DNA from: Eubacteriales bacterium
GTDB lineage: Bacteria > Bacillota > Clostridia > Saccharofermentanales > UBA5734
NCBI GenBank assembly: GCA_028684955.1
Contig: JAQUEY010000007.1
Location: forward strand, 1-42,051
Length of the DNA stretch: 42,051 nucleotides
Direction: 5' to 3'
Under the pieces are notes generated by a model. That model was given only the letters and a program-made list of their open reading frames with translations, was not told where the DNA came from and ran no database searches. Every line of letters begins with the position of its first letter. The stretch's first letter is position 1. This document shows positions 5,879-31,613 of this stretch, piece after piece. A program made the translations under genes and the position numbers.

Positions 5879-7084
5879 TCAGATCGAGAATCCGCAGATC
5901 CGGGCTGTTTCACGGGCGATGGCCAGCTCTTCATTGGTCGGGACAACCAGTACTTTGACCTTGGACTCATCTGTCGAGACAACAGCTTCGCGGCCACGGA
6001 CTGATGCATTGCGATAAGGATCGATCTCGCAGCCCATGTAGGTCAGGCCTTCGCAGGCACCCTGACGGATATCGGCAGTGTTCTCACCGATGCCGGCTGT
6101 GAAGACGACGGCATCGACGCCGCCCATGGCAGCTGCATACATGCCGATGTACTTGCGGCACTGGTACTTGAAAATATCGAGAGCCAGGCGAGCCCGCTTG
6201 TTGCCCTCACCAGCTGCTGCGTACAGGTCGCGGAAATCGCTGCTGACGCCAGAAATGCCGAGCACACCGGATTGCTTGTTCATCATGTTATCGACGCCCT
6301 TGGTGTCGAGTTTTTCTTTTTCCATCAGGAAGGTCACAATTGCCGGGTCAATGTCACCGCTGCGGGTACCCATGCAGATGCCGGACAGAGGGGTCAGGCC
6401 CATGGTGGTATCGACGCACTTGCCCTTCTCGATCGCGGCGATGGAAGAACCATTGCCCAAATGGCAGGTGATGATGTTGACGGATTCGTAAGGTTTGCCC
6501 ATCATCTCAGCGGCGCGGCGGGCAACATACCCGTGTGATGTACCATGGAAGCCGTATTTGCGGACGCCATGCTTTTCATACATTTCGTAGGGCAAGGCAT
6601 ACATGTAAGCCTTGGCTGGCATGGTCTGGTGGAAAGCCGTGTCGAACACAGCAACCTGGGGCACACCCGGCATGGCTTCTTCGCAGGCTTCGATGCCGGT
6701 CATGTTCGGTGGATTGTGCAGTGGGGCGAGATCAAAGCAGGAACGGATGGCCCGCTTGACCTCCGGGGTGATCAGGGCTGAGGATGCAAATTTCTCGCCA
6801 CCATGGACGACACGATGACCGACGGCGTCGATTTCGTCCATACCCTTGATGATGCCATGCTCCTCGGAGGTGAGGACAGACAAGACCGCCTGGACCGCAA
6901 CCTTATGGTTGGGCAGATCCATCGGCAGCGTAACGGTGTCGCAACCTTTGCTGTTGTGCTTGATCAGGGCATGATCGAGGCCGATCCGCTCGGCGCCGCC
7001 CTTGGCCAGGACGTCACCATTCTGGGCGTCGAGGAGCTGGTATTTGAGGGAAGAACTGCCGGCATTGATGACAAGTACGTTCAT
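5879..7084 (-). CDS. ackA: Acetate kinase
   Basis: Transfers phosphate from acetyl phosphate to ADP, giving acetate and ATP. The 401-residue length is typical. The protein starts [17 protein letters not shown], the conserved Asn/phosphate-binding N-terminus, and has [43 protein letters not shown] and [11 protein letters not shown], all hallmarks of the ASKHA-fold acetate kinases. The start lies only three bases after the pta stop, so pta and ackA form a two-gene operon read toward lower coordinates. Together they give substrate-level ATP from acetyl-CoA, the usual fermentative endpoint in anaerobic Clostridia. A hairpin without T-run follows the gene. Confidence 0.98.
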
Positions 7085-7087
7085 GGC

Positions 7088-8080
7088 TTAAGCCTCCTGG
7101 GCCTGGACGGCCGTGATGGCGACGACGCCGACGATGTCGTCAGCAGAGCAGCCGCGGGAAAGATCATTGACGGGGCGGGCGATACCCTGGGTAACCGGGC
7201 CGTAGGCCTCAGCCTTGGCCAGGCGCTGGACCAGCTTATAGCCGATGTTGCCAGCATTGAGGTCTGGGAAGATCAGGACATTGGCTTTGCCGGCGACCGG
7301 GCTCTGCGGGGCTTTGCTCTTGCCGACGGAAGGAACGATGGCGGCATCGAGCTGCAGTTCTCCGTCCAGGGCCAGGTCGGGTGCCTTTTCCTTGGCCAGG
7401 CGGGTGGCCTCAACGACCTTGTCGACCAGCGGATTCTTGGCTGAGCCGTAGGTGGAGTAAGACAGCATGGCCACAGTCGGTTCGATCCCAGTGAGGGTCT
7501 TGAAGGATTTGGCAGAGGACAGGGCGATTTCGGAGAGCTGGTCGGCGTCCGGATTTTCCATCAGGCCGGCATCCGAGAACAGGAACAGGCCGTCGGCTCC
7601 GAATTCACAGTCCGGTACATCCATGATGAAAAAAGAAGAGACCAGTTTGGTGCCGGGTGCAGTCTTGAGGATCTGCAGGGCCGGGCGCAGGGTATTGGCG
7701 GTGGAGTTGATCGCACCCGCGACCATGCCGTCGGCTTCCTGCATCTTGACCATCATGACACCGAAGAAGAGCGGATCAAGCATGGTCTGCTGTGCCTGTT
7801 CCGGCGTCACACCTTTGGACTTGCGCATCTCATAGAATGCCTCCGCATAGGCTGCATAATCTTTGCTGGCTGCCGGATCGATAATGGTGGCACCAGAAAT
7901 ATCCCATTGTGGCGCGACGGCCTTCACCTTCGCCGGATCACCGATCAGGACGATGTTGGCGATGCCTTTTTCCAATATCTTGGCGCAAGCTTCGATGGTC
8001 CGCGGGTCCGATGCCTCCGGCAATACAATGGTCTTTTTGTCGCTTCTGGCTTTGTCAAAGATCTTGTCAATGAAACCCAT
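7088..8080 (-). CDS. pta: Phosphate acetyltransferase
   Basis: Converts acetyl-CoA and phosphate to acetyl phosphate and CoA, feeding AckA. The 330-residue protein is the short, single-domain Pta form without the N-terminal DRTGG/regulatory region found in long proteobacterial enzymes. Recognisable segments are IVLPEASDPRTIEAC near residue 20, ADGMVAGAINSTANTLRPA near 116, MLSYSTYGSAKNPLVDKV near 200 and FPDLNAGNIGYKLVQRLA near 275. The GAGGAG site sits eight bases before the ATG. A consensus-like promoter (8178-8206) and a 6-bp dyad (8156-8171) lie upstream, so regulation at the DNA or leader level is plausible. Confidence 0.97.
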   Translation of the reverse strand: MGFIDKIFDKARSDKKTIVLPEASDPRTIEACAKILEKGIANIVLIGDPAKVKAVAPQWDISGATIIDPAASKDYAAYAEAFYEMRKSKGVTPEQAQQTMLDPLFFGVMMVKMQEADGMVAGAINSTANTLRPALQILKTAPGTKLVSSFFIMDVPDCEFGADGLFLFSDAGLMENPDADQLSEIALSSAKSFKTLTGIEPTVAMLSYSTYGSAKNPLVDKVVEATRLAKEKAPDLALDGELQLDAAIVPSVGKSKAPQSPVAGKANVLIFPDLNAGNIGYKLVQRLAKAEAYGPVTQGIARPVNDLSRGCSADDIVGVVAITAVQAQEA

Positions 8081-8257: not shown

Positions 8258-9583
8258 TCAAGACATGGCCAACAGAGCCAGGAGATTATCCCGGGCAGTC
8301 ATTGTGACAAGACCTTCGCCATCCTGATAAAAAACAGCATCCAGGACCGAACTGGTCGGACTGGTGGCCCGGTGCCACTGGAGTCGTTCAACGGCTTTCC
8401 TGTACAGCTGCTCGTGATTGGCAATCCGGGCGATGCGGGCAGTCAGGGCCAGTCCGTCCAGGGATTCGAGCGACGTGCTGGCTTGCCCCTGGGCGATGTG
8501 GTAAGAGTCGTACAGGACATTGTCGTTGAGCAGGTGTTCGATGAGCCAGCTCAGGGTGCGTGGGTCGAGCTCGCCAATTTCAGCCAGATGCAGGGCACAA
8601 GTGAGTGAGTCCGCCAGATCGACCACGGGGGCTGTACTGACAAAACGAACATAGCCTTGCTGCTGGGTGGCATAGCCATAGGCATACAACGGCAGAGCAG
8701 CCCCGATCAGTCCGCCGCGGACCAGCGTGACAGCTTCCGTATACCGGATTTCCAGGCTTGGATCCAGATCTGCCAGGGCGCGCAAAGCCAACAGGTCCAG
8801 AGAAGCCAGCCGGATCACTGGATCACTGGCAAAACCAGTTTCAGGCGGTTCACTATCCGGCTGCGGGTGTGGAGTCGGAGTGGCAGCAGGATCCTGGGTC
8901 GGAGCTGAGGTAGGGATGGCTACAACCTGGTCCGGTTCCAGGTTTGTGCCGATCACCTGAGCCAGGCTTGAAGCCAGCGCTTTTTCCTGCAGGTCCAGTT
9001 CATCTTGAGGCCAGTTGGCATAGGCCAGCGCCAGCACACGGAAATAATGGAGCGAATCTGACCAGGAAACCTGCTCATCCGCAGCAGGCTCCAACTCAAC
9101 GGCCGATCCAAGATCGGTCAACGTCTCTGGCACACTCTCCGGGGTCAGCGTTCTTTTTGCATAAACCAGGCCGTCCGGACTGACAAAGCCGGATCTGAAT
9201 TGCTCATTCCAAAGGATAAATGGCCTCTGCTCCCCTTGTTCTGCCAACCAGGAGCCATACATCAGTTGATCTTGCGCAGTCAGTTCATTCGACCAGCGTG
9301 CAGGAATTCCGAATTCTTCCTGGGCTTGCTGGTACCATGAAACAAGGCCAGAACGGGTCATCAGGTTGGCTTTCAGGCGGTCTGAAAGGGTTTTGGCGTC
9401 CTCGGCATCAAGGAACGCAGCAAAGGGAGACGAGTCATGAGACCCGGGCACACCAAAAGGGCGCGCAGGGGGTGCCGCATAACGCAACCACAGCAGGACC
9501 ACCGCTGTTGCCAGCAGCAGGATCCCGGCAATGAGCAGCCATCTGGCCTTATGGGGGTGATTGTTTGCACCAATTGTTGCCAT
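8258..9583 (-). CDS. Membrane-anchored protein of unknown function, possibly (alpha/alpha)6 fold
   Basis: The 441-residue product begins with a short basic N-terminus and one hydrophobic segment (about 14-33, WLLIAGILLLATAVVLLWL), so it is a signal-anchored extracytoplasmic protein. The rest is helix-rich and broken by a Pro/Thr/Gln-rich linker around residues 222-250. Segments such as FVSPDGLVYAKR, VSWSDSLHYFRVLALAYANW and YDSYHIAQGQASTSLESLDG recall the repeated helix pairs of six-hairpin glycosidase-like (GH8-like) proteins. This is only a resemblance by eye, and I cannot point to a confident catalytic acid. The gene is divergent from tmcAL across 48 bases. The ATG is nine bases after a TGCTATGAT extended -10 and has no ribosome site, suggesting a leaderless mRNA. 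Confidence 0.7.
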   Translation of the reverse strand: MATIGANNHPHKARWLLIAGILLLATAVVLLWLRYAAPPARPFGVPGSHDSSPFAAFLDAEDAKTLSDRLKANLMTRSGLVSWYQQAQEEFGIPARWSNELTAQDQLMYGSWLAEQGEQRPFILWNEQFRSGFVSPDGLVYAKRTLTPESVPETLTDLGSAVELEPAADEQVSWSDSLHYFRVLALAYANWPQDELDLQEKALASSLAQVIGTNLEPDQVVAIPTSAPTQDPAATPTPHPQPDSEPPETGFASDPVIRLASLDLLALRALADLDPSLEIRYTEAVTLVRGGLIGAALPLYAYGYATQQQGYVRFVSTAPVVDLADSLTCALHLAEIGELDPRTLSWLIEHLLNDNVLYDSYHIAQGQASTSLESLDGLALTARIARIANHEQLYRKAVERLQWHRATSPTSSVLDAVFYQDGEGLVTMTARDNLLALLAMS

Positions 9584-9591
9584 ATGCCGCC

Positions 9592-9600
9592 ATCATAGCA
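9592..9600 (-). promoter_or_regulatory. Extended -10 for the 8258-9583 gene, leaderless-type spacing
   Basis: TGCTATGAT on the minus strand (TATGAT at 9592-9597). Only eight bases separate it from the start codon, so transcription should begin at or within about two bases of the ATG. No convincing -35 is present. Confidence 0.5.
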
Positions 9601-9615
9601 GAATCACCTTGCCGC

Positions 9616-9624
9616 TGCTATAAT
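9616..9624 (+). promoter_or_regulatory. Extended -10 for tmcAL, leaderless-type spacing
   Basis: TGCTATAAT with TATAAT at 9619-9624, seven bases before the tmcAL ATG. No Shine-Dalgarno sequence lies in between. The expected -35 position overlaps the -10 of the opposing promoter. Confidence 0.55.
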
Positions 9625-9631
9625 CGACCTC

Positions 9632-10903
9632 ATGAAAACTGCTGGAATCATTGTAGAATACAATCCCCTGCACAACGGCCACGCTTGGCAGCTGCAAAAG
9701 GTCAAAGAGACCTTTGGCAAAGACACTGCGATTGTTGTGGTCATGAGCGGCTCTTTCACACAACGGGGCGAGCCGGCTGTGCTCGACAAATGGACCCGGG
9801 CCCGAATGGCCCTGGCCTGCGGAGCGAGCCTTGTCCTGGAACTCCCATTGCCCTATGCCACTGCCAGCGCCGAACGCTTCGCTGCTGGAGGCGTGCAGGT
9901 CCTGGCTGCCACCGGCATCACAAAAACGCTGGTCTTTGGCAGCGAGCACGGTACGTTGCCTGACCTGGTCGACCTGGCCCGCCTGCTGGCCAGTGAAACA
10001 CCCGCGTTTAAATCAGCCCTGCAGGAATATCTCGATACCGGACTTTCCTTCGCGGCGGCACGTCAGCAGGCAGTGGCCCAGCTGCTCGGCGATGTGCACA
10101 AGGCAGCGCTGCTGAAAAGTTCCAACAACATCCTGGCCGTCGAATATTTGAAGGCCATCTTGCGCCTGCCCGCCCAAAAGCGCCTTGAGCCGGTCACTTT
10201 CCAGCGCCAGGGCCAGGGGTTTCTCGATCCTTCCCCGGTATCCCGGTTTGCCAGCGCCACCGCCATCCGGCAAGTCATCGCCCAATACAGGGACAATCCG
10301 GCAGCCTTGCTCCAGAATCTGGCCCACACCATGCCACCTGAGGCTCTGGGCATTCTTCTGGAAACAGTCGCTGACCAGAAAGGCCTGGTCTTATATGAAG
10401 ACCTGTCACTCCCCGTTCTGTCCTTGCTGCGGACCCGCAGCAAGGAGACCCTTCTCGTTTATCCGGGTATGGGGGAAGGCCTGGCCCAACGTCTGCATGA
10501 ATACGCCCGCCGTCCCGTACAGGAGACCTCCCCGTCTGCACGGATCGGCCACCTGGTTGAAGATGCCATGAGCCGGCGTCTGCCGAGAACCAGAGTCCAG
10601 CGCGCCCTGCTGCACCTGCTCCTGAACCTCAAAGCATCTGATCTGGAACAATTCGATGCAGCAGGAGGGCCTGCCTACATCCGGGTCCTGGGATTCGACA
10701 AGAATGGGCGCTACCTGTTGAAATTAATGCGCCAGAAAGCCAGTTTGCCAATCATCACCCGTGGTTCCGACTTCCATGAATACGCCAAAAACCCCAACCT
10801 CCAGCACCAGGCCCAGTTTGACTTGGCCGGCACCGACCTGTGGTCGATTCTGGCCGGATCGAATTCCGGAGCAGATTTTGACAGGCCTGTTGTCATTCGT
10901 TAA
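9632..10903 (+). CDS. tmcAL: tRNA(Met) cytidine acetate ligase (YlbM family)
   Basis: The family makes N4-acetylcytidine at the wobble position of elongator tRNA-Met, using acetate and ATP directly. The 423-residue protein begins MKTAGIIVEYNPLHNGHAWQL, the exact family N-terminus with the nucleotidyltransferase HxGH motif (His14-His17), followed by VVVMSGSFTQRGEPAVLDKW and an ELPLPYATASAERFA segment. The C-terminal part is the helical RNA-binding region. The start is fixed by the conserved N-terminus, although no ribosome site precedes it and a TATAAT lies seven bases upstream, consistent with leaderless translation. tyrS follows after 84 bases with no strong promoter, so the two are probably co-transcribed. 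pta-ackA, which makes acetate, lies 1.5 kb away. Confidence 0.93.
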   Translation: MKTAGIIVEYNPLHNGHAWQLQKVKETFGKDTAIVVVMSGSFTQRGEPAVLDKWTRARMALACGASLVLELPLPYATASAERFAAGGVQVLAATGITKTLVFGSEHGTLPDLVDLARLLASETPAFKSALQEYLDTGLSFAAARQQAVAQLLGDVHKAALLKSSNNILAVEYLKAILRLPAQKRLEPVTFQRQGQGFLDPSPVSRFASATAIRQVIAQYRDNPAALLQNLAHTMPPEALGILLETVADQKGLVLYEDLSLPVLSLLRTRSKETLLVYPGMGEGLAQRLHEYARRPVQETSPSARIGHLVEDAMSRRLPRTRVQRALLHLLLNLKASDLEQFDAAGGPAYIRVLGFDKNGRYLLKLMRQKASLPIITRGSDFHEYAKNPNLQHQAQFDLAGTDLWSILAGSNSGADFDRPVVIR

Positions 10904-16230: not shown

Positions 16231-18537
16231 TCAACGACCACGATGGACTTCGATGATGTCCCGGATCGCCTTGATCCGGCCCATCACCCGGTCAAACTGG
16301 TTCTGGCTGGACACTTCGATGGTCATGACCAGCGTCGCTGTCACATCTTTCATCGCCGTCAGCTTGCCGGAAAGGATCGATACCTTTTCTTCCGCGATGG
16401 CATTGGAAACATCCGCCAGCAAATGGCGCCGGTCGCGTGCCACGATCTTGAGCTCAACCTGATAGGTGGAATTGCCGCCATCCTTGGCCCAGGCAACGTC
16501 GATCAGGCGGGAGGCTTTTTCGGCATTGGAAGCCGATCCGGAAGAATTTGCCATCAACTGGCGGATGTTGCTGCAATCCGTGCGATGGACAGCCACCCCC
16601 TTGCCCCGGGTGACAAAGCCGATGATCGGATCACCGGGGACCGGACTGCAGCAACGCGACAGTCGCACCAGGCAGTTGTCGATACCTTTGACCACAACCC
16701 CTTGGTCGTAGCGTGCTGTCTTGTGCTTGCCAGCCGGACGGGAAATCGTCTGGGTTCCTTCCTCATCCTCGAGTGGATTGGTCTGCGGACTGTACACCAC
16801 CTGTCCCGATGGACTGATCCGGTAGCCCAGGCGGGTCCGTTCATCATCCGGCAAGCTGCGGATGTATTCATCGCGCAGGCGCGGAACGATCTTGCCAGCC
16901 GACAGGCCGCCATATCCGATGGATGCGTACAAGTCATCGAGGGTGCTCAGGGTGTAGCGGCGATACAGGGTCTCGAGGAAATCGGCTTTCAAAAGCTGCG
17001 CTGTGGAAAACCCGGTTTTCTTGATTTCGCGTTCGACGATCTCTTTACCGCGCAGGACATTTTCCTCGCGCATTTCCTTTTTGAACCACTGGCTGATCTT
17101 ATTGCGAGCTGACGTGGATTTGACAATCTTGAGCCAGTCCCGGCTCGGTCCATGGACCTTTTCTGAAGTCAGGATCTCGACGATGTCACCGTTTTTCAGC
17201 TCGTAGGTCAGTGGAACGATCCGGCCATTGACTTTGGCCCCGTACATGCGGTTGCCAATACCGCTGTGAATGTTGTAGGCAAAATCGATCGGACAGGAGC
17301 CAGCTGGCAGGGAACGGACTTCCCCTTTGGGGGTAAAGACAAAGACCTCGTCGGCGACCAGGCCGCTCTTCAAAGTCTCCATAAACTCGCCCGCATCACG
17401 CATGTCCTTCTGCCATTCGAGCAGTTGGCGCAGCCAGGTCAGTTTACCTTCGAAATTATCCGAACTGCTGGCTGCTTTGGGCGCGCCTTCCTTGTAGCGC
17501 CAGTGGGCTGCAATGCCGTATTCTGCAGTGCGATGCATGGCCAATGTCCGGATCTGGACTTCGAAAGGGATCCCTTTGGGGCCGATCACCGTCGTGTGCA
17601 AAGACTGGTACATGTTCGGCTTGGGCATGGCAATGTAGTCTTTGAACCGGCCCGGCATGGGCTTGTACAACTCATGGACCAGTCCAAGGACCGCGTAGCA
17701 GTCTGCCACCGTGTTGACAATGATCCGGGTCGCAAACAGATCGTAAATCTGTTCAAGCTCCTTGTCCTGGGCTTTCATCTTGCGATAGATGCTGTAGAAA
17801 TGCTTGGGCCGGCCTTCGATGTCGGCCTCGATCCCCATCTCGCGAATCTTGTTCTGCAGCTGGACAACGACATCCTCGAGATATTGTTCGCGTTCGGACC
17901 GTTTTTGCGAGATCGCGCCGACCAGCTCATAGTAGGCATTGCGGTCAATGTAGCGCAGGCACAGGTCCTCCAGCTCCCATTTGATTTTGTAAATACCGAG
18001 CCGGTGCGCCAGCGGTGCATAGATATCGAGCGTTTCGCGAGCTTTTTCCAGCTGCTTTTCCGGTGTCATGTGTTTCATGGTCCGCATGTTGTGCAGGCGG
18101 TCCGCCAGCTTGATCAGAACGACACGGATGTCCTTGGCCATGGCCAGGAACATCTTGCGAAAATTTTCTGCCTGGATTTCTTCTTTGGATGAGTAGGGGA
18201 TCCGGCCGAGTTTGGTCACCCCATCGACGAGAGAAGCGACGTCATCGCCAAACCGCGTAGCCAGTTCATCATAGGAAATGCCAGTGTCTTCGATGGTGTC
18301 GTGCAGCAAGGCAGCGATCAAGGTGTCGGCGTCAACTTCCAGTTCGGTGAGGATTTCTGCGGTGGCCAGAGGATGGATGATGTAAGGCTCTCCAGTAACC
18401 CGGCGCTGCTGCTCATGGGCGGTCCGGGCAAATTCGTAAGCCTCGATGATCCGCTGACCATCGTGCTGGCCGGAATACTCCTCATACAGGCGGATGATCC
18501 GCTGCAAGATTTCATTACTGGTTTCGTGATGGCTCAT
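16231..18537 (-). CDS. rel: Bifunctional (p)ppGpp synthetase/hydrolase
   Basis: Makes and degrades the stringent-response alarmone. The 768-residue length and domain order are standard for the Rel/RSH long form: HD hydrolase (His55, His79-Asp80 and the IEDT motif at 82-85, so hydrolysis looks intact), synthetase (with GRFKDYIAMPKPNMYQSLHT and EVQIRT), TGS (about 405-465, FTPKGEVRSLPAGSCPIDFA), a zinc-finger region (CCSPVPGDPIIGFVTRGKG and HRTDC) and a C-terminal ACT domain (about 690-768). The start ATG overlaps the recJ stop as ATGA. An AraC/PocR regulator follows at 18 bases. In many Firmicutes apt lies between recJ and rel; it is absent here. Confidence 0.97.
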   Translation of the reverse strand: MSHHETSNEILQRIIRLYEEYSGQHDGQRIIEAYEFARTAHEQQRRVTGEPYIIHPLATAEILTELEVDADTLIAALLHDTIEDTGISYDELATRFGDDVASLVDGVTKLGRIPYSSKEEIQAENFRKMFLAMAKDIRVVLIKLADRLHNMRTMKHMTPEKQLEKARETLDIYAPLAHRLGIYKIKWELEDLCLRYIDRNAYYELVGAISQKRSEREQYLEDVVVQLQNKIREMGIEADIEGRPKHFYSIYRKMKAQDKELEQIYDLFATRIIVNTVADCYAVLGLVHELYKPMPGRFKDYIAMPKPNMYQSLHTTVIGPKGIPFEVQIRTLAMHRTAEYGIAAHWRYKEGAPKAASSSDNFEGKLTWLRQLLEWQKDMRDAGEFMETLKSGLVADEVFVFTPKGEVRSLPAGSCPIDFAYNIHSGIGNRMYGAKVNGRIVPLTYELKNGDIVEILTSEKVHGPSRDWLKIVKSTSARNKISQWFKKEMREENVLRGKEIVEREIKKTGFSTAQLLKADFLETLYRRYTLSTLDDLYASIGYGGLSAGKIVPRLRDEYIRSLPDDERTRLGYRISPSGQVVYSPQTNPLEDEEGTQTISRPAGKHKTARYDQGVVVKGIDNCLVRLSRCCSPVPGDPIIGFVTRGKGVAVHRTDCSNIRQLMANSSGSASNAEKASRLIDVAWAKDGGNSTYQVELKIVARDRRHLLADVSNAIAEEKVSILSGKLTAMKDVTATLVMTIEVSSQNQFDRVMGRIKAIRDIIEVHRGR

Positions 18538-30140: not shown

Positions 30141-31547
30141 TCAGCCGAGCCAGTGCCTGACTACGTTCACAAGCCGCTCTCCAGAGTGTTCTGCTGGCTC
30201 TTTCTGGGCATATGAAAGCAATCGTTCCAGAAAAACCCCCAGCTGAACACCTCTGAGCGGGAGTTGACGGGTCAAGTCGCGCCCTGTCACAGCCAGCTCA
30301 GACAAAGACACAGGCAATCCTGAACCTGGTCCCGTTTCTTCTTCCAACTGGATTTGCTGGCGCAAATTGACCAGTTCCGGGCCAAGCGATTTCAAGCCCG
30401 GTTGGATGAAGGCCAGCAAAGACCAGCCATCCACGGCACATTGCCGGGCGGTACGACTATCCAGTGCCAATGTTTTGGCCAGTACCCGGATGATAACCGC
30501 CAGGGTGAAAGCATCCAGTTCCCGGTCCCAGTCCAGATGCAGGCGTAAACCGGCTGCGTAAAGCATGGCATGGCCATGACGGGAAGCAGGGCGGGACATG
30601 CGACAGGTTTGCTGGAAAATCTCGCGCAGATCCTGAAGGGACCGGGGGGAAAGGATGCTTCTTAGCCTTGCAGTCCAAGCTGCAAATCCGGGTACAGGAA
30701 CAAGACCAAGGCCGGTGACTCGTTCGGTTCGACTGAACTGGCAAGCAAGGTAAAACAAAGGGACCGTCTGGTCGGCATGCCAGGCAGGCCTGATCCAGGC
30801 GGCCAACAACTGGACCAGGGCCAGATTGTCTGGTTGAAACCCGAACAGTCGCTGGGCCATGACGGGGAGCAAGCCACTGGGCTCGAAAGCCAGCAAGGCG
30901 TGGCCATGCGCGGCATTCATCATGCGCCCTAATTCATGGGTGATTCGTTCCACGCTGAGGATCAGGGCACGCTCTTTTTCCTTGTGGATCGCCCGGACCA
31001 GATCCGGGTCAGGGGACAAATCGTAGGTCAGGGTGAATCTGACGGCCCGCAGCATACGCAGCGCGTCTTCACGCAGCCGCGTTCCGGGATCACCGACGGT
31101 GCGCAGGCGATTTTCCATCAAGTCCGACCAGCCACCGAACGGATCCAGCAGACCTCGCCGGGGATGGTAGGCCATGCTGTTGATGGTGAAATCCCGCCTG
31201 CTCAAGTCCTTCTGGATGTCGGTTTCGAACAGGACCTTGTCTGGACGACGGCCATCGGAATAGTCGCTCTCGCTGCGATACGTGGTTATTTCAAGCGCAT
31301 GGTGCTCGACCAGAACAGTCACTGTCCCATGGGCCAGACCCGTGGCAAAGGCATGTGGAAAAACAGATAGAACCTGGTCAGGCAGGGCATTGCTCGACAG
31401 GTCAAAATCAAGGGGCGTACGTCCGATGGCCAGGTCACGGACACAGCCCCCGACCAGCCACACTTCAAATCCAGCCTGTTCCAGTCTCTCCAGAGCGATC
31501 AGCACAGGTGCCGGCAGGCGCAAAGCCCAGTCGAGTGGCGTCACCAT
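30141..31547 (-). CDS. cca: CCA-adding tRNA nucleotidyltransferase (class II)
   Basis: Adds or repairs the 3' CCA end of tRNAs. From the ATG at 31547 (GGGGGAG six bases upstream) it has 468 residues; a longer start at 31607 would lie on the predicted transcription start and is unlikely. The head domain shows VWLVGGCVRDLAIGRTPLDFDL (quoted over 20 in two parts: GGCVRD at 33-38; the LDFDL metal aspartates at 47 and 49), THE RRDFTINSMAY motif and DPFGG, followed by EDALRMLRAVRF. The C-terminal half is the helical body and tail, with an HD-like arrangement not evident. CCA and A-adding (poly(A)) forms cannot be told apart by eye; one complete CCA enzyme is the simplest reading. Confidence 0.93.
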   Translation of the reverse strand: MVTPLDWALRLPAPVLIALERLEQAGFEVWLVGGCVRDLAIGRTPLDFDLSSNALPDQVLSVFPHAFATGLAHGTVTVLVEHHALEITTYRSESDYSDGRRPDKVLFETDIQKDLSRRDFTINSMAYHPRRGLLDPFGGWSDLMENRLRTVGDPGTRLREDALRMLRAVRFTLTYDLSPDPDLVRAIHKEKERALILSVERITHELGRMMNAAHGHALLAFEPSGLLPVMAQRLFGFQPDNLALVQLLAAWIRPAWHADQTVPLFYLACQFSRTERVTGLGLVPVPGFAAWTARLRSILSPRSLQDLREIFQQTCRMSRPASRHGHAMLYAAGLRLHLDWDRELDAFTLAVIIRVLAKTLALDSRTARQCAVDGWSLLAFIQPGLKSLGPELVNLRQQIQLEEETGPGSGLPVSLSELAVTGRDLTRQLPLRGVQLGVFLERLLSYAQKEPAEHSGERLVNVVRHWLG

Positions 31548-31613
31548 GGCATCTCCCCCCTGCTTCGTTTGCATCTTGCGGTCTGACCGTGTATCATTGA
31601 GCAGCATATTCCT

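Follow-up and report, generated by a model that had tools for sequence, protein, structure and literature searches.

Genes on either side of the gap

The window (the whole stretch of DNA that was analysed, 42,051 nucleotides) carries two divergently oriented genes separated by an intergenic gap of 48 bases (9584-9631, read directly from the sequence). The plus-strand gene is tmcAL (9632-10903), a member of the tRNA-Met cytidine acetate ligase family whose product matches HIGH_NTase1 (PF05636) over the whole protein with an E-value of 2.5e-116; against the NCBIfam equivalog PRK13670 it scores 325.9, below the cut-off of 360, and is not named at that level. The minus-strand gene (8258-9583) encodes a protein of 441 amino acids with a single N-terminal membrane segment (identified by eye) and a putative, remote GH8-like domain. 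A profile built from five sequences matched the GH8 structure 3ren_A with an E-value of 2.8e-24, the match being confined to profile positions 245-432 in the C-terminal half. A Pfam search of this protein returned no family at the cut-off and its AlphaFold single-sequence model, with a mean pLDDT of 42, was set aside. The next gene behind it on the minus strand is pta (phosphate acetyltransferase, 7088-8080), which has its own Shine-Dalgarno (SD) core, AGGAG, followed by ackA (acetate kinase, 5879-7084), also with an SD core of its own. An Rfam scan of the window gave no match, and RNA folding of the gap and of both 5' ends gave nothing beyond what was obtained with shuffled sequences.

Two extended -10 boxes and no usable Shine-Dalgarno site

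The first-pass annotation of this DNA had placed an extended -10 box immediately before each of the two genes, and direct reading of the gap confirmed both. On the plus strand TGCTATAAT (9616-9624), the putative tmcAL promoter, ends 7 nt before the ATG at 9632, the intervening bases being CGACCTC; on the minus strand TGCTATGAT (9600-9592), the putative promoter of the divergent gene, ends 8 nt before the ATG at 9583, with GGCGGCAT in between. Both boxes have the features of extended -10 sigma-A promoters, namely TGN directly before TATAAT and a weak -35. Assuming a 17-bp spacer, the -35 positions of the plus (9596-9601) and minus (9615-9620) promoters both read TAGCAG on their own strands, a poor sequence with two of six matches to TTGACA, and each overlaps the opposite extended -10, as had been proposed. 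The first T of the hexamer lies 13 nt before the ATG of tmcAL and 14 nt before that of the divergent gene, which matches the -10-like signal found about 10 bp upstream of leaderless (TA-led) genes. A single symmetrical -10 shared by both directions was considered and rejected, since the two hexamers are distinct and stand 21 bp apart.

A usable SD site is absent from both genes. Within the 20 nt upstream of the start codon the best core is 3 nt for tmcAL and 4 nt (TGAT) for the divergent gene, the latter being spurious as it is part of the gene's own -10. By comparison, the same scan found a core of at least 4 nt in 17 of 25 other genes of the window, called with a simple gene caller made for this analysis, so that the earlier statement that most genes here have an SD site and these two do not was upheld. 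In a sample of 235 genes from the same genome, such cores preceded 170 genes versus 76 when the scanned windows were shifted into genes. A search of the genome's own assembly for a 16S gene from which to read the anti-SD sequence found none.

Two extended -10s facing each other in one 48-bp gap are unlikely to have arisen by chance. Across 290 kb of the same genome, read on both strands and in any frame, an extended -10 stood 5-9 nt before 6 of 10,427 ATGs, two of which are the pair described here; this sample is non-random, in that it includes the window and contigs picked for carrying TGCTATGAT. That motif occurs 15 times in the genome, versus twice for the reversed control.

Start codon assignment

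The closeness of box and start codon depends on where translation begins, and start calls made from sequence can err. In both open reading frames the ATG is the first of any ATG, GTG or TTG past the in-frame stop. The tmcAL ATG is aligned in all 20 loci of the family (see below), and the earlier proposal that its position is set by the conserved N-terminus MKTAGIIVEYNPLHNGH was borne out: the spacing between the initiator Met and the EYNP motif is unchanged in tmcAL relatives outside the family, which have clear SD sites, and this fixes the tmcAL start. For the divergent gene, the ATG at 9583 is the only plausible start ahead of the membrane segment. We thus consider it extremely improbable that the starts are misplaced, with translation in fact beginning deeper in the reading frames after a conventional leader. 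The base at position -1 was not used as evidence; it is a pyrimidine in 20/20 tmcAL loci but also in 142 of 202 ATG-started genes of the own-genome sample.

The tmcAL arrangement is a trait of one family

The family set comprised 23 genomes and yielded 20 tmcAL loci, L009 having the same tmcAL region as L011 and not being counted again. With the criterion of TG plus at least five of the six bases of TATAAT, an extended -10 was found 5-9 nt before the tmcAL ATG in 15 of these 20 loci, and in 17 when the TG was not required; L014, with TGCTTTAAT 7 nt before the ATG, is a near miss and would make an eighteenth. The two remaining loci, L017 and L020, belong to one genus and have no comparable box. 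SD cores of at least 4 nt were present in 5/20 loci, always overlapping the -10 or upstream of it. Outside the family the picture was reversed, with the arrangement seen in 0/33 tmcAL upstream regions from other families of the order (30/33 showing an SD core no shorter than 4 nt) and 0/70 from the phylum (66/70 with such a core); these regions are samples and not censuses, coming from the genomes in which a strict DNA pattern for the N-terminus matched exactly (40 of 188 and 71 of 398, respectively). The first-pass annotation had held that longer leaders with ribosome sites in relatives would count against leaderless transcription. For tmcAL such leaders were absent within the family save in the one genus, in favour of the leaderless reading, and present outside it.

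Within the genus of the window the distance from box to ATG is 6, 7, 9 and 9 nt for tmcAL and 6, 8, 8 and 8 nt for the divergent gene; by sequence comparison, small insertions and deletions appear to keep the start codon near the -10 box.

This conservation bears on the idea that the usual tmcAL promoter lies further upstream and yields an ordinary, SD-free leader, the near -10 being secondary or fortuitous. A candidate exists in TTGCCA-16-CAGAAT, a weak plus-strand two-hexamer match (9/12 to consensus) that ends at 9604 and would leave some 21 nt of leader. What is conserved across genera, however, is the near extended -10, which is also not expected by chance given its rarity before ATGs in the 290-kb genome sample, whereas the spacing of the upstream candidate is already broken in L013, of the same genus, where the spacer is 14 bp; nor does the implied leader contain an SD site. 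We judge this explanation unlikely, and favour transcription of tmcAL from the box next to its start codon.

In a TmcAL tree the exceptional genus (L017, L020) falls inside the family, adjoining the genus of the window, with supports (83/71 and 82/78) that are below the usual thresholds. No single branch of the tree separates the family from the other sequences (two changes), and L029 and some of the outgroup rows are long branches. One gain of the leaderless arrangement at the base of the family and one loss is the simplest reading of the distribution, although it is not forced by the tree.

In L020 the region upstream of tmcAL contains an SD-like AAAGGAAG and a short open reading frame whose stop overlaps the tmcAL ATG; L017 is less clear. 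The L020 arrangement suggests translational coupling of the short frame to tmcAL, in the genus that appears to have no leaderless promoter for this gene.

The divergent gene and its leader

An orthologue of the divergent gene lies opposite tmcAL in 19/20 family loci by phmmer, L024 being an unmatched fragment at a contig end, and an extended -10 (at least 4/6) is present on its strand in 19/20 loci. This box stands 6-8 nt from the start in 6/20 loci, which belong to genera g1 and g5. Elsewhere the distance is 22-95 nt, and some of those loci have a clear SD site (e.g. GGAGG in L023). By its -10 distance the gene is thus predicted to be leaderless in two genera, and the relatives outside these, with their longer leaders, speak against leaderless transcription there. 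The earlier suggestion of leaderless mRNAs in both directions consequently holds, by comparison, for both genes in the genus of the window and for tmcAL in most of the family, but not for the divergent gene outside two genera.

Competition or joint regulation

In the genus of the window the polymerase footprints at the two promoters must overlap, and it had been proposed that the promoters should compete. As a conserved design this was not supported. Among the 17 family loci with both boxes, the distance between the -10 hexamers, measured by hand, was 13, 21 (five loci), 23 (two), 35, 36, 40 (two), 44, 52, 62, 81 and 132 bp. Promoters competing at a fixed distance were rejected as a conserved feature on these figures and, because the distance varies, any competition would be incidental to compaction. 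Work published in 2026 on five bidirectional promoters of E. coli reports that basal transcription is too low for polymerases to compete (PMC12825309).

A related possibility is that the divergent -10s are primarily one pseudo-symmetrical regulatory unit, acting through mutually exclusive polymerase binding or as the operator for a regulator, with leaderlessness a by-product of compaction. Both -10s and their flanks do form an imperfect inverted repeat, with CTGCTATNAT on both strands; the divergent extended -10 is retained in 19 of the 20 loci, and in the genus of the window each -35 position overlaps the opposite -10. The repeat is nonetheless accounted for by two facing copies of one promoter consensus, the spacing of 13-132 bp is hard to reconcile with a single unit, and tmcAL keeps its predicted leaderless start where the promoters are far apart (L018, L019). 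There is, in our view, only a small chance that such a unit is the primary function; two independent promoters remain the preferred reading.

A small predicted leaderless class in the family and order

Stretches of three family genomes were sampled with the gene caller (235, 326 and 267 genes, n = 828). Genes with an extended -10 at 6-8 nt from the start numbered 3, 5 and 1 respectively (9/828), against 0/828 at 9-16 nt, pointing to a small but real class of predicted leaderless genes in these three genomes. Because one genome from another family of the order had an extended -10 at 5-7 nt in 5 of 299 genes (and at 10 nt in one more), leaderless genes seem to be a small class in the order and not peculiar to the family. 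Exact-motif counts alone indicate a weak general enrichment, since in the 23 family genomes TGCTATAAT stood 5-8 nt before an ATG 73 times versus 54 times at 14-17 nt; tmcAL itself supplies 9 of the 19 extra occurrences.

Several further genes had a similar layout. In the window, TAAAAT lies 6 nt upstream of the ATG of a poly(A) polymerase/CCA-adding enzyme-type gene (30141-31607, minus strand), which lacks a good SD site and may also be leaderless; this gene borders a second short divergent gap, with starts at 31607 (minus) and 31653 (plus), the opposite gene encoding an RCC1-repeat protein. Three genera of the family (L068, L073, L075, L076 and L081, grouped by eye) share a gene for a membrane protein with an N-terminus like MSAKTSVKYYRPPNK, and its ATG follows TGCTATAAT at 6-7 nt, which makes it a second conserved leaderless candidate; a Pfam search with the L076 protein gave no match. 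Other candidates seen repeatedly, all named by eye, were a PgsA-like gene in two genomes of the window's genus (L074 and L095), a P-loop NTPase-like gene in two g2 genomes (L058/L059), and an S4/pseudouridine-synthase-like gene in g2 and g5 (L066 and L117). In L107 (~17230-17281) TGCTATAAT stands 6 nt upstream of the ATG of a nucleoside-phosphorylase-like gene, again identified by eye, and TGGTATAAT faces it at a distance of about 24 bp in the same back-to-back layout. In L077 (1489-1518) two copies of TGCTATAAT face each other across a CATATG palindrome, and both ATGs open frames of only 7-8 codons.

Discussion

From their upstream sequences, tmcAL and the divergent gene are probably read from promoters near their start codons, giving messages almost without a leader. 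More fully, we think it very likely that the gap contains two sigma-A extended -10 promoters, that both mRNAs are leaderless or nearly so, that tmcAL became leaderless as a derived trait of the family, and that the leader of the divergent gene approaches zero in two genera only. The two promoters would be independent and back to back, with start points at the ATGs or within about 0-3 nt of them. Leaderless mRNAs are translated through recognition of a 5'-terminal AUG, and both messages would begin translation in this way, with no SD site. On the same reading, an ancestral tmcAL with the usual leader and SD site would have lost its leader in this Clostridia-type family; most descendants would have kept the promoter at its 5-9 nt distance from the ATG, and a leader would probably have been regained in one genus. 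The divergent gene, which nearly always has its own extended -10, would have had its leader reduced to near zero in the two genera alone.

The earlier view that leaderless mRNAs are uncommon in Firmicutes needs a qualifier. In streptococci they make up 8.6-9% of mapped mRNAs, and 81% of the leaderless transcripts of S. pyogenes are also leaderless in S. agalactiae, in a paper that also discusses 5'-terminal AUG recognition (PMC6431027); in C. difficile there are 15 potential leaderless genes, and extended -10 boxes precede 245 transcription start sites (PMC7438776). The streptococcal case resembles the present one in phylum, in the extended -10 consensus and in the persistence of the leaderless state between species, and differs in scale, the streptococcal share comparing with about 1% of sampled genes, predicted from sequence, in a Clostridia-type family; the main text of that paper makes no mention of ylbM or a nucleotidyltransferase (PMC6431027). 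For the paired layout the closest parallel is prpD and Rv1129c of M. tuberculosis, neighbouring divergent genes whose transcription start sites both map to their start codons (PMC3898074); those start sites are mapped and ours predicted, and that pair is a regulator and its target in an Actinobacterium with very many leaderless genes. The bidirectional promoters with a symmetrical -10 described in PMC12825309 likewise drive divergent transcription from overlapping promoter DNA, but there one -10 serves both directions, whereas here each direction has a box of its own, with 21 bp between the two and a spacing that varies among relatives.

Neither leaderless mRNAs nor divergent leaderless pairs are new in themselves; the new element is the lineage-specific switch of tmcAL. 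No description of a family-wide, gene-specific leaderless switch of tmcAL was found in the literature searched, no paper linking TmcAL with leaderless mRNAs was found among the matches listed, and a search for lineage-specific leaderless versus SD-led orthologues in Clostridia found no paper.

It is tempting to suppose that leaderless tmcAL has been selected for in the family, an SD-free message tying the tRNA-Met acetylation enzyme to conditions that favour 70S/leaderless initiation, in genomes where about 1% of genes would be leaderless and with one genus reverting. We regard this as rather doubtful and offer it tentatively.

At the sequence level, the comparison supports a small leaderless class in genomes of the Clostridia type, beyond the Lactobacillales and Mycoplasma in which the Firmicutes cases of a 2011 survey were concentrated (PMC3160421), the 15 C. 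difficile cases having been noted later (PMC7438776). It also amounts to a natural experiment, in which one housekeeping orthologue is SD-led across the phylum sample, appears leaderless in most of one family and shows an apparent reversal in one genus. Such a case makes it possible to study what leads one gene to switch its way of starting translation, and by what route, in a lineage with few leaderless messages, and also to learn if leader length drifts or is selected.
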